From contig JABLXH010000051.1 of the NCBI GenBank assembly GCA_013178155.1, positions 1 through 41,019 of the forward strand: 41,019 nt of DNA, written 5' to 3'. Every line of letters begins with the position of its first letter. The stretch's first letter is position 1. Made by a program: the position numbers and the translations under genes. The notes beneath the pieces were generated by a model. That model did no database searches. It saw only the letters and a list, made by a program, of their open reading frames with translations, and was not told the DNA's origin. This DNA is from Armatimonadota bacterium (GTDB taxonomy: Bacteria > Armatimonadota > Zipacnadia > Zipacnadales > UBA11051). Positions 31,937-36,791 of the stretch are shown piece by piece.

Positions 31937-32332
31937 TTAGCTGCCGGCCGGTCCGTCACTGCGGCCGCCGGTGTAAGCGGTCTCGATAGCACTGCTTGAG
32001 ATCAGGATGGACAGTATCTCCACTACGGCCGCCATCACACCCGCCAGCGCTACCGGCGCTTCCACCACGACCTGGTCCTGCACCCGCCACCTGATCGCCC
32101 CGATGGTGTCCCCTTGTAGGCTGCGCGTCACTCCTTCCTTGACCTGTGCGGTCAGCCGGGCCAGGCTCTCCCTTTGCCGCTTCTCCAGATAGCTAAGCGC
32201 CCTCACCACATCGCCCTGCGCGGCATCCAGCGCCTCCACCGCCGCCTCGTACCCAACGCCCATGCGCTCCCGCAGGGTGTCCACAGCGCTCAGATCGTGT
32301 ATCAACCGCAGACTCCCAGCGACCGCACTCAC
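31937..32332 (-). CDS. DUF4342-type protein with N-terminal UBA/TS-N-like domain
   Basis: The product has 131 residues. The start is GTG at 32332, four bases after the cvpA stop, with little ribosome site, so translation is probably coupled. Residues about 14-50 match the UBA/TS-N fold found at the start of EF-Ts (VDTLRERMGVGYEAAVEALDAA, GDVVRALSYLEK). The C-terminal part has a short amphipathic stretch, IRWRVQDQVVVEAPVAL, then a hydrophobic segment, AGVMAAVVEILSILISS, which in DUF4342 proteins may lie on or in the membrane. The function of the family is unknown. The chain is short and ends in a polar tail. Confidence 0.75.
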   Translation of the reverse strand: MSAVAGSLRLIHDLSAVDTLRERMGVGYEAAVEALDAAQGDVVRALSYLEKRQRESLARLTAQVKEGVTRSLQGDTIGAIRWRVQDQVVVEAPVALAGVMAAVVEILSILISSSAIETAYTGGRSDGPAGS

Positions 32333-33088: not shown

Positions 33089-35929
33089 CTACCAGAAGAG
33101 CTTTCTGAGCTCCAAACGCCCTTCCGTGGTGCCGTCCGCTACCGTGTACATCGGCGCCGTGCGACGCGTCACCGAAAGCACCATCCGGCCGTTCTCGCCC
33201 CACGACCTGATGTAGGACAGGTCCAGAGCAGAACCCGGAGGCACTTTCTGACCGGGGTCAGGCTGGCAGAAGTCCCCTGTCAGGTAAGCCAAAGCGATCT
33301 TCCCCGACCCCTCCTCGCTGCCACCATCGAGCTGGATCCGAACGAACTGGTCCACCACGTCTGGGACCCGGGAATCCAGATACCGATACCCCAACTGCAA
33401 CTGCAGCGAATCCCCGATGGAGCGAGCCAGTGAGGCGTCGATCTGGGAGGCCTGGCGAATGGTCTTTCCATCGGCCGCCAACTGATTGGCCGCGTAGGTC
33501 AATTGGAAGGTGCCACCCAGCGCCGGCATGGCAAAGTCGAAGGCTTTGGCCGGCGCGATTCGCCCCGGCTGGTCTTCGTAGCGCCATCGCACGGCCATCT
33601 TGTCCGGCGTGCCATGCTCCACCGCCAGAGCCACTATGCCGTCGTCATTCAGGCTGACCATCTTCGCCGGATCGTATTCCGAATAAGCGGCCGTAACGGC
33701 GATGCCCTTTGGATCTCCCAGGCTTAGCTCGACGCGCCGAGCGTTGTCCACGTCGGGCAACGAGTTGCCGAAGGAGACCAGGCCCGCGCGCAGACCGATC
33801 CCGGAGTCACCACGCTCACGCACCAACTCCAGGACACGCAGACTGTTGGCCACTCCTCCCAGCACATCAGCCGAGTTGTACTGCCCCTGCACTGACAGGC
33901 TGTCGGACACCGACCATTTACCCAGCATCTGGGTCTGGGTCAGGGTCGGAACCGTCATGCCGGCATCATTGATGGTGTACTTCGCCTCGACGGTGAACGG
34001 TCGCAGTGGCTGCGCCTGCAGCGAGAGGTTCGTGACATCGGAACTGCCGACACCCTTGGTGTCGGTGCTCACGTGCTGCCCACTCAGCAGCAGCTTCTTG
34101 CTCAGCTTCACCTTGGGAAGCGTAACGGCCATCTGCCGCTGCTCGCCCCGGCCGCCGGGCGAGAAGGTCTCAACCACCTGCCGCTGGACGGTCGCACCCT
34201 CCGCCACGGGCGCCGTCAGCTTGCCCGTGGTCGTCTTCGTATAGACGCCGCCCTGCCGCACCGTGACTATGGTCTCTTCGGCACCAAAGTCCTTGTCAAA
34301 GAGGCGGAACGGGTTGTTGATGTAGGTTGTGCGCGCCTCGGACATACCACCGCCAGTATCCTGCCCATGGATGGTATGCTGGAAGGACGCCTGCTTGCCA
34401 AACAGCTTCAGCGGCATCGCGAAGGTCGTGTCACGGACCTCAGTATGCGTGCCGTTGAGGTAGGTGTAGTTGGAGTGATGCTCGGCCCTCACCAGGAACG
34501 GACCGATCTCCAGGGGCATCGCCAGGTCCAACTTCTGGCTCCGCGTCGCCACACCCTTCACCGGTCCGGTCGAGCGCACCAGCGACCAGGTGGTTGGCAT
34601 CGCCTGTCCATCCACCTGGAAGGGAATCTCAACTGTGGTCGTGCGCGACTCGAATACGCCCTGGCCCACATCGCTGCCGTCGATCACGTAGTTCAGCTTA
34701 TACGCTTTGCCCAGCAGCTTCACCGGCGTGGCGAAGGCCGTCTTGCGTGTCTCGGTGTGCACGCCCTTGGCGTAGTTGAACTGGTACCCATGCTCGATGA
34801 CGCTGCCCTCGCCCAGGAAACGCAGCGGCAAACGCATGGCCACATTCTGCGACTTGGTCAGTTGGCCCACATCGGTCTGATACAGCGACGAGTAGGCCCA
34901 GGTAACGTCCTCACCGGAGATCCGCAGGGGCAGGGCCAGGTCCCACGTGCGAGACTTGGACACCGCCCCGAAGTTGTTGTTGTACGTGTTGGCGAAGGCC
35001 CACTTGGTGTCCTTGCCGCTGATCTTTAGAGGGAGGGCGACCGAGAGGTTCTCCGACCGAGCCCGGACGCCGTTGCGCTCCTGGAAGGTGTTGCCGAAAG
35101 CAATGTCAGCCCGGTTACCGCGGATGGCCACAGGCAACGCAGCGCTGAAGCTCTCCGTGCGCAGGTCCAGACCGTTGCCCTCCTGCTGCGAGGTGGCGTA
35201 GCTCCAGGTAGCCGGCCCACCCGAGAACGGCGTGGTCAGCCCTGTGGCAAAGCTGCTGCCCGTGATCCCTGTCAGGCCTTCATCGGTCTCAAACTGAGCG
35301 GCCTTCAGGTTCATCGTCCAGCCCTCGGCGAAGCCCGTGGCCAACTCCAGGGAGTCATCGGTACGGTTGACGTCGCGCGCTCCCGCGACCATCGTCTTGG
35401 TCTGCGTGCGGGAGAACTTCAGGGTGCTGGCCGCCGTACCGCTGCCAAAGTCCTGCACCATGCCCATCGTTCGCACCCGGCTGCCTGACAGGAACGTGCC
35501 CAGCACGTTGGTGCGGGTGGTGGTGGTTTCGGAGAAGCTAAGACGCGTCCGGTCGGACAGCCCGAAAGCGGTCTCGAGCCCCGAGTCCTCCTGGAAGGCC
35601 ACAAACAGCGCCTGGGACTTGTCATCCACCACCGTCGGGTTGTACTTGTAGGTGATGGAGTTAGAGCGGCCGGGCGTCAAATGGATGGTGTAGCTGTCAG
35701 CAGCGCGCAAGGCACCACCGGCAGCCAGATCACGCAGGGAGAGTGGCGCCGAGGTATCCGTATCAAGCCCCCGCAGCCGCAGCACCGTACCTCTGACCTC
35801 ATTGAGGTAGAACTTGCTGCGGTCGAACTCCTCCGCGGCCGCGGCTGTGACAAAGACGGCGATGACTAAAGCCAGGCGGAGTAGTCTCATAGTCCTTTTC
35901 TTTGCTGTGACGGTGTTGGCAGTGATCAT
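33089..35929 (-). CDS. Putative outer-membrane beta-barrel protein with ten 34-residue repeats
   Basis: The product has 946 residues from ATG at 35929, with AGG nine bases before it; ATG at 35890 is a second option that still keeps a signal peptide. The N-terminus has a basic stretch, then LLRLALVIAVFVTAAAA, then EEFD, an export signal. Nearly all the rest predicts as amphipathic beta-strands with alternating polar and hydrophobic residues. Residues 226-567 are ten tandem repeats of 34 residues (one of 36). The C-terminal third has further strand-like segments such as QLQLGYRYLDSR and LDLSYIRSWGENGRMVLSVT. The chain ends LELRKLFW; a last aromatic residue in an amphipathic strand is the mark of proteins inserted by the BAM complex. 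I recognise no family. It is a single gene with its own promoter and terminator. Confidence 0.8.
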   Translation of the reverse strand: MITANTVTAKKRTMRLLRLALVIAVFVTAAAAEEFDRSKFYLNEVRGTVLRLRGLDTDTSAPLSLRDLAAGGALRAADSYTIHLTPGRSNSITYKYNPTVVDDKSQALFVAFQEDSGLETAFGLSDRTRLSFSETTTTRTNVLGTFLSGSRVRTMGMVQDFGSGTAASTLKFSRTQTKTMVAGARDVNRTDDSLELATGFAEGWTMNLKAAQFETDEGLTGITGSSFATGLTTPFSGGPATWSYATSQQEGNGLDLRTESFSAALPVAIRGNRADIAFGNTFQERNGVRARSENLSVALPLKISGKDTKWAFANTYNNNFGAVSKSRTWDLALPLRISGEDVTWAYSSLYQTDVGQLTKSQNVAMRLPLRFLGEGSVIEHGYQFNYAKGVHTETRKTAFATPVKLLGKAYKLNYVIDGSDVGQGVFESRTTTVEIPFQVDGQAMPTTWSLVRSTGPVKGVATRSQKLDLAMPLEIGPFLVRAEHHSNYTYLNGTHTEVRDTTFAMPLKLFGKQASFQHTIHGQDTGGGMSEARTTYINNPFRLFDKDFGAEETIVTVRQGGVYTKTTTGKLTAPVAEGATVQRQVVETFSPGGRGEQRQMAVTLPKVKLSKKLLLSGQHVSTDTKGVGSSDVTNLSLQAQPLRPFTVEAKYTINDAGMTVPTLTQTQMLGKWSVSDSLSVQGQYNSADVLGGVANSLRVLELVRERGDSGIGLRAGLVSFGNSLPDVDNARRVELSLGDPKGIAVTAAYSEYDPAKMVSLNDDGIVALAVEHGTPDKMAVRWRYEDQPGRIAPAKAFDFAMPALGGTFQLTYAANQLAADGKTIRQASQIDASLARSIGDSLQLQLGYRYLDSRVPDVVDQFVRIQLDGGSEEGSGKIALAYLTGDFCQPDPGQKVPPGSALDLSYIRSWGENGRMVLSVTRRTAPMYTVADGTTEGRLELRKLFW
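34229..35254 (-). repeat. Ten tandem copies of a 34-residue beta-hairpin-like protein repeat
   Basis: Within the barrel-like protein, copies start at residues 226, 260, 294, 328, 362, 396, 430, 466, 500 and 534 of the 946-residue chain. Nine are exactly 34 residues and the seventh is 36. Consensus features are Pro at position 7 (nine of ten, usually as LPL), Gly at 12 (eight of ten), Gly at 28 (eight of ten), and a polar end rich in S, T, E, R and K. One unit, for example, starts TWDLALPLRISGEDVTWAYS. Each copy looks like two strands with a turn at the glycines. DNA identity between copies is low, so the duplications are old. A partial copy may precede the first. Confidence 0.85.
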
Positions 35930-36056
35930 TTTCGACCTGCGCCGCAATACCTGGACACCGAGTTGGCACCGATAGCTTAGTGGCCGCAAGCGCCGGGAAT
36001 GTTCCCCAGGCCGCCATGCAGCTTGCGCCATCCATCTATCGTCGCCAGTAACACCG

Positions 36057-36306: not shown

Positions 36307-36347
36307 GGCGACAGTAGCATACCTCAGTCAGAAGGGAGTTGACACCC

Positions 36348-36791
36348 ATGTCGCTGATCCGTTGGTATCGCACCCGCAACTTGCCCACTGTGTGGGACCA
36401 GATGGAGCAGATGGCTCGTGAAATGTCGCGTCTGATACCATGGCAGGAGGAGGGTGAAGACCGCCCCTTCGGCATCCCGGTCAACGTCTACGAGACCGAC
36501 AAAGAGGTCGTTGTGAAGGCGGAACTGCCCGGCGTCAAGAAGGAGGACCTCGACGTTAACATCCAGGACAACACTCTCACGATCCGGGCCCAGACCCGCG
36601 AGGAGAGCGAGGTCAAGGAGGAGAGCTACTATCGCCGCGAGCTGCGCACGGGTAGCTTCTTCCGCGCGGTTCCGCTTCCGGTCGAGGTCAAGGAGGAGGA
36701 GCTCAAGGCCTCCTACGAAAATGGCGTATTGACCGTGACGGCGCCGAAGGCCGTGGAGAAGAAAGTGGGCCGCAAGGTCGAGATCAAGTAA
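36348..36791 (+). CDS. hsp20: Hsp20 / alpha-crystallin family small heat-shock protein
   Basis: The product has 147 residues. ATG at 36348 has GGGAG nine bases upstream; a TTG three codons earlier is less likely because it abuts that site. A short N-terminal region (MSLIRWYRTRNLPTVWDQME) leads into the alpha-crystallin domain (about 43-135): PVNVYETDKEVVVKAELPGV, the QDNTLTIRAQ strand, and the signature YENGVLTVTAPKA. The C-terminal tail ends KKVGRKVEIK; the usual I-x-I motif appears only as V-E-I. The protein should be an ATP-independent holdase chaperone forming oligomers in the cytoplasm. It is a single-gene unit with a strong promoter and a terminator hairpin 28 bases after its stop. Confidence 0.96.
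   Translation: MSLIRWYRTRNLPTVWDQMEQMAREMSRLIPWQEEGEDRPFGIPVNVYETDKEVVVKAELPGVKKEDLDVNIQDNTLTIRAQTREESEVKEESYYRRELRTGSFFRAVPLPVEVKEEELKASYENGVLTVTAPKAVEKKVGRKVEIK

Follow-up and report, generated by a model that had tools for sequence, protein, structure and literature searches.

A hairpin-repeat protein family of one Armatimonadota order: a candidate for an unusually wide outer-membrane beta-barrel

The gene, its 34-residue repeat and its relatives

The window, as we call the whole 41,019-nucleotide stretch of DNA analysed here, carries on its minus strand a gene for a protein of 933 residues. Its reading frame is open from 36085, and residue numbers below refer to the open frame 33092-35932, in which the ATG start is residue 15. 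A putative Sec signal peptide was read by eye, and its removal would leave a mature chain of about 914 residues. Relatives likewise have hydrophobic N-termini with AxA- or GxA-like ends and typical n, h and c regions, also judged by eye. The features of the gene are as follows.

33089-35890, minus strand: whole gene, ATG to stop, 933 amino acids, no known family
35834-35890, minus strand: putative Sec signal peptide MRLLRLALVIAVFVTAAAA, cleavage before EEF
35165-35695, minus strand: N-terminal conserved run of predicted strands (AlphaFold), residues 80-256, present in 27-29 of 30 aligned members
34241-35164, minus strand: nine tandem hairpin units, residues 257-564, lengths 34, 34, 34, 34, 34, 36, 34, 34 and 34
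34859-35164, minus strand: hairpins 1-3, mutually similar
34547-34858, minus strand: hairpins 4-6, duplicate of the block 7-9 at a lag of 104 residues
34241-34546, minus strand: hairpins 7-9, the ancestral three-hairpin block, matched by the units of genome G001
34475-34486, minus strand: AEHH motif in hairpin 7
33092-34240, minus strand: C-terminal conserved part with predicted strands, residues 565-947, aligned in 30 of 30 members
33254-33280, minus strand: TGDFCQPDP, the window's version of a conserved (S/T)GxFVPxP turn at which genus g5 has extra hairpins
33092-33124, minus strand: outer-membrane-protein (OMP)-type terminal strand EGRLELRKLFW

An HSP20 gene (36339-36791, plus strand) is the divergent neighbour and also lies near six other loci, in families f1 and f5. 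It is the sole recurrent neighbour, and the gene neighbourhood gave no clue to function. Synteny of glyQS, sigma and cvpA genes is common only to the window and its nearest relative; between the sigma factor and the CvpA-like gene lies a small protein (31937-32332, minus strand) with a UBA/TS-N-like segment (PF19026, E 0.0023, below the cut-off).

A sequence-only reading of this DNA had proposed a 34-residue tandem repeat, and the period is real. At lag 34, self-comparison of residues 227-568 scored +0.83 per residue (BLOSUM62), about 16 SD above shuffled sequences (-0.89 ± 0.11, n=1000), the highest score of any shuffle over lags 20-50 being -0.27. Harmonics appeared at lags 68 and 102, with a second peak at 104. 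The nine units were delimited by dynamic-programming tiling, and the prolines that anchor them and the adjoining copies lie at residues 235, 267, 301, 335, 369, 403, 437, 473, 507, 541 and 575. These are spaced by 32, five times 34, 36 and three times 34 residues, so that exactly 34 residues occur in eight of ten spacings and not in nine of ten copies as had been counted; the N-terminal tenth copy has 32. Among the three positions said to be shared, the proline (position 7) is invariant in the nine clear units and the glycine after it (position 12) is kept in seven of nine, while the glycine near position 28 recurs less regularly. A weaker form of the repeat extends further: lag 34 also ranks top over residues 607-947 and over the complete mature chain, and hairpin units range from 32 to 36 residues along the chain. 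The segment first marked contains the repeat but covers only the best-preserved third of a predicted all-beta chain of about 914 residues.

The view that the units are beta-rich and unlike TPR or PPR was borne out by AlphaFold models consisting of strands throughout and by the Pfam search, in which the repeat protein had no TPR match although a neighbouring TPR gene was matched in the same search. Searches of Pfam, NCBIfam and PDB sequences with the window protein and 26 relatives found no match, in keeping with the earlier statement that no described family has this repeat, and a PDB profile search returned helicase chance matches only. Plug and TonB-dependent/SusC receptor models of Pfam and NCBIfam did not match either. 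Single-sequence searches detected homologues in 39 of 41 genomes from this uncultured order (Ca. Zipacnadia/WS1, Armatimonadota); 20 genomes from outside it had none, and tblastn found nothing on plasmids. A single-sequence scan of genome contigs returned nothing; the full-family alignment was too little conserved for a contig scan, and a profile from a closer subset worked. By profile search, four further genomes of the class and phylum match weakly over part of the chain. The family is thus restricted to one order apart from weak remote relatives.

Two such remote relatives in other Armatimonadota (L077, 976-3369, plus strand; L078, 1703-3748, plus strand) combine a hairpin-repeat beta chain with the N-terminal motif GPYxLxW...GxDYxIDYxxGxVxF, which in L077 matches positions 601-638 of the SprA model TIGR04189 (E 2.9e-5). 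The SprA models TIGR04189 and PF14349 had no match in the window protein and 26 relatives.

The family alignment comprises 30 members, 29 of them with a complete C-terminus, and most of its invariant columns lie in the C-terminal part (residues 565-947). The window protein ends ...GRLELRKLFW. The sequence-only reading had likened this Phe-Trp end to that of a BAM substrate, and the likeness holds across the family, with F, W or FW as the last residue or residues in 29 of 29 complete members.

Whole hairpins are gained and lost with the flanks fixed

Copy number was one of the checks that the sequence-only reading had proposed, and it varies widely: 3, 5, 6, 7, 8, 9 or 11 units among homologues. 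Unit counts and gaps were measured between conserved flanks. Most members have 17-18 residues from flank to flank, others 122, 154-157, 186-189 or 224 (the window); the excess over this baseline is about 104, 136-139, 168-171 or 206 residues, which corresponds to 3, 4, 5 or 6 times 34. Three units occupy the stretch in the f5 genomes and in G001, G002, G006 and G024, five in G003 (two of them of 29 residues), seven in G030 and G037, eight in G034, G036, G013, G018 and G026, nine in the window, and eleven in G032, where a three-hairpin insertion is added to eight. Within single families, G012 has three units against seven in G007 and G017, and G011 has eight against six in G016. Members of family f4 are about four hairpins shorter, and genus g5 has two or four extra hairpins at a second site, a conserved SGDFVPxP turn near the C-terminus.

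Pairs of closer relatives differ in the same way. G018 and G032, at 84% identity, are still set apart by 101 residues in the repeat stretch (three hairpins) and by 74 at the tail; G013 and G028 (58% identity) differ by 101 residues, and G011 and G016 by 68. Gaps between G024 and G013 and between the window and G001 are split, and their sums are multiples of 34 within a few residues. The exception to whole 34-residue steps is G003, with 58 residues in two shortened hairpins. The genomes are related, so the differences are not all independent events; those within genera (g3, g5, g10) and within families (f1, f2, f6) imply several events. In the G032 locus (L014, 286-2940 and 2637-3347, both minus strand) the N-terminal part of the gene lies in another frame, through a frameshift or an assembly error.

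Traces of the underlying duplications are visible in the proteins and in the DNA. Relatives without the insert (L003, L018) have three units at the nine-unit site, and units 1, 2 and 3 of G001 best match window units 7, 8 and 9 (scores 40, 66 and 46). Hairpins 4-6 of the window arose from hairpins 7-9 by block duplication: the two blocks share 33 identities over 102 residues, with the pairing strongest for 5-8 and weak for 6-9, and the DNA coding for residues 379-408 and 483-512 retains a 70% match over 90 bases (E 4e-6). Hairpins 1-3 look like single-hairpin copies, judging from unit scores of 57 (1-2) and 79 (2-3) against a mean of 18.5. The three-hairpin copy in G032 matches at 70% over 118 bases of DNA (E 1.5e-10) at a spacing of about 100-104 codons. 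Because the copies in G032 and in the window differ by about 30%, they are not an assembly echo. In G011 (family f6), units 1-2 and 3-4 match pairwise at 42% and 44%, and G016 has one such pair.

Growth by hairpin duplication, which the sequence-only reading had offered as a possibility, is therefore upheld by both the whole-hairpin length differences among relatives and the DNA-level remnants. Between fixed flanks, the N-terminal half of the protein acquires and sheds whole hairpins, one at a time or two or three together, and this turnover of strand pairs seems to happen over short evolutionary times.

The AEHH motif of hairpin 7 recurs as AE(H/Y/F)H-like sequences in the corresponding position of the first ancestral hairpin of L003, L004, L007, L012, L018 and L029, and by unit alignment in families f1, f2, f3 and f5. 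It is possibly a ligand or metal site.

Predicted structure and form of the sheet

Structures were predicted with AlphaFold from an alignment of the window protein and the related-locus proteins. The model of a short member (L058) has 39 strands of 7-16 residues (pLDDT 79, pTM 0.52) and that of the window protein about 50-54 strands (pLDDT 61, pTM 0.39), those of its repeat region mostly of 11-16 residues and joined by two-residue turns. The 11-15 extra strands of the window model agree with its six extra hairpins (12 strands). By DSSP, both models are antiparallel and up-and-down throughout. The AlphaFold check suggested in the sequence-only reading thus predicts an antiparallel meander with medium confidence, and the alternative of a surface beta-solenoid raised there finds no support in either model.

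The Foldseek and VIA-align matches listed were mainly outer-membrane barrels (FimD, LptD, SusC, FecA, BtuB, OmpG), the best with Z 15-16 over about 300 residues. Each VIA-align alignment extended over only about half of the chain, and the rmsd of several was 8-16 Å. The low pTM and these half-chain, high-rmsd matches make a single closed barrel no more than a prediction. The polarity of the hydrophobic face is constant in 28 of 39 strands of the short member (p about 0.001) and in 37 of 50 of the window protein (p about 0.002). In the C-terminal half, hydrophobic faces have an aliphatic centre followed by aromatic and then charged residues on one side, and inner faces carry many Gly, Ser, Thr and charged residues; in the N-terminal half, a weak hydrophobic face appears on every second strand. 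Counts of hydrophobic alternation were tried as a discriminator between barrel and groove and dropped, LptD and FhuA having scored below TamB.

The barrel matches, the constant hydrophobic polarity and the aliphatic, aromatic and charged pattern of the C-terminal half favour a barrel form. We therefore consider, with a probability of about 0.6, that the gene encodes a new family of outer-membrane beta-barrels in which one continuous sheet closes into an unusually wide barrel. The chain would be exported by Sec and its signal peptide removed, and it would then be folded by BAM from the C-terminal terminal-strand signal; an Omp85 (BAM) protein is encoded in the same genome. With about 39 strands in the short proteins and about 50-54 in the window protein, the antiparallel sheet is predicted to close into the barrel. 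Since the unit of change is two strands, later strands would keep their original direction in the membrane. The stronger version of this proposal is held only tentatively and we would sooner bet against it: one closed transmembrane barrel with about 50 strands, exceeding every known single-chain barrel, in an orthologous family varying from about 31 to 57 strands and changing within genera by one, two or three duplicated or deleted hairpins.

Under standard barrel geometry (shear n+2; our own arithmetic), the backbone diameter would be about 7 nm for 40 strands and about 9 nm for 52. A single-chain barrel of about 52 strands and 9 nm would be a severe leak unless plugged or flattened, and as the chain contains no plug-sized domain, a partner protein would be expected. 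Two mid-sized barrels would avoid the 9 nm hole. Such an arrangement, of two or more barrels of ordinary size in tandem (about 18-22 strands each, with hairpin gain enlarging the first), is suggested by the VIA-align matches of the short member, which fall into a porin-like set over residues 36-357 and a BtuB/LptD-like set over 361-697, parted by a break near 355-365. However, the chain has no linker there, other turns are as large as the break, inspection of the mid-chain region showed no terminal strand of the signal-like type, and the hydrophobic face carries its alternating polarity unchanged past the break. The size of the library barrels may by itself account for the split, and we regard tandem barrels as improbable.

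The terminal Phe is no proof of a barrel, because TamB of the same genome also has an OMP-like end (L074, contig C193 of G000, minus strand, ...EIGYRRSF); the start of the Omp85 gene adjoins it. This brings in a lipid-carrying beta-groove free in the periplasm, of the same kind as TamB, YhdP and LptA, in which extra hairpins would lengthen the groove and span a wider periplasm. The meander with tight turns at both edges would fit a groove, as would length steps of two strands, each hairpin adding about 1 nm by our own arithmetic. The Leu-rich, aromatic-poor composition also comes near that of TamB and YhdP: aromatic residues make up 8.4% of the window protein, 5-8% of TamB and YhdP, and 14-15% of the E. 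coli LptD and FhuA barrels. Against a groove speak the cleavable-looking signal peptide, where TamB has an inner-membrane anchor (PMC11014939), the lack of any PF04357, AsmA or LptD_N match in the window protein, and the presence of TamB as a separate gene. The Gly/Ser/Thr- and charge-rich inner faces of the C-terminal half and the one-sided aromatic-charged edge of its outer face are likewise OMP-like. The fold matches listed, being mainly barrels, also weigh against a groove; that AsmA/TamB or LptA structures were absent from them proves nothing. A groove is unlikely in our estimation, though less so than tandem barrels.

ApoB100 and vitellogenin were also among the Foldseek matches of the window model, an ApoB fragment reaching Z 15.4, and might indicate an apolipoprotein-like amphipathic sheet on a lipid surface or another non-barrel surface beta-structure. 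This is very improbable in view of the regular tight turns, the C-terminus of OMP type and the predominance of barrels among the matches; we know of no lipoprotein particles of the apolipoprotein kind in bacteria.

Cell envelope context and known large barrels

An outer membrane with LPS is likely in these organisms, since Omp85 and TamB are encoded in the genome and, in the order, LptF/LptG were found in 21 of 21 genomes and LpxC in 19 of 21. The LptD models PF04453 and PF19838 matched in none of the 21 genomes, and LptD is one of the top fold matches for the short member, which together could make the window protein the order's LPS exporter, an analogue of LptD. The PF04453 model is insensitive, however (matches in 2 of 14 controls), and neither an LptD_N domain nor an LptD barrel model was matched in the window protein. 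Moreover, a separate LptD-like protein of about 830 amino acids is encoded directly after an lptF/G gene in the same genome, G000 (L109, contig C68, 2189-4678, plus strand; NF003358, E 4.4e-8). The LPS-exporter identity was dropped once this gene had been found, and we now give it hardly any credence, marginally less than the apolipoprotein-like sheet. L109 itself was missed by PF04453 and PF19838, and relatives carry LptD_N at that place; we take it for a divergent LptD of the order.

The near-universal presence of the hairpin-repeat gene in the order speaks for a housekeeping role in the envelope. As to its nature, our best guess, and a weak one, is that the protein may form a wide outer-membrane conduit or scaffold, SprA-like in size, blocked by or shared with partner proteins. 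Its location in the outer membrane, its folding by BAM and its barrel form are, as set out above, what we infer from the chain and its models.

LptD and the TonB-dependent/SusC barrels have 22-26 strands. Parts of the models find some of their best structural matches in these barrels; the window protein differs in having more strands, no sequence relation to them, no plug or LptD_N domain and no long loops in the repeat region. TamB and YhdP resemble it in their long amphipathic meander (PMC11014939), and this genome's TamB in its terminal Phe, whereas the window protein has a putative signal peptide in place of a membrane anchor, no match to their families and barrel-like fold matches. The largest single-chain barrel reported is SprA/Sov, the T9SS translocon, with 36 strands (PMC10994853, PMC13067283). 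The likeness to it lies in a very large predicted single-chain sheet and in the short SprA-like N-terminal motif of a remote relative, L077; in contrast, the window protein has short turns on both sides and matches no SprA model.

Franklin et al. (2018, PMC6340704) inferred that OMPs grew, deep in their history, by a hairpin or a double hairpin at a time. Those steps were reconstructed between barrel classes, and fixed ones were described as rare and ancient (PMC6340704), whereas strand number here varies among the orthologues of a single family, also within genera. Laboratory variants of OmpX with duplicated or deleted hairpins still fold, as cited in PMC5542473; in the present family the change is natural and repeated, and occurs in a far larger chain.

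If the chain forms one barrel, it would exceed the 36-strand upper limit of single-chain barrels (PMC13067283) and would raise the questions of how BAM closes such a chain and how so wide a pore is sealed. The recent, repeated hairpin steps in one gene would make change in barrel size testable with natural pairs.
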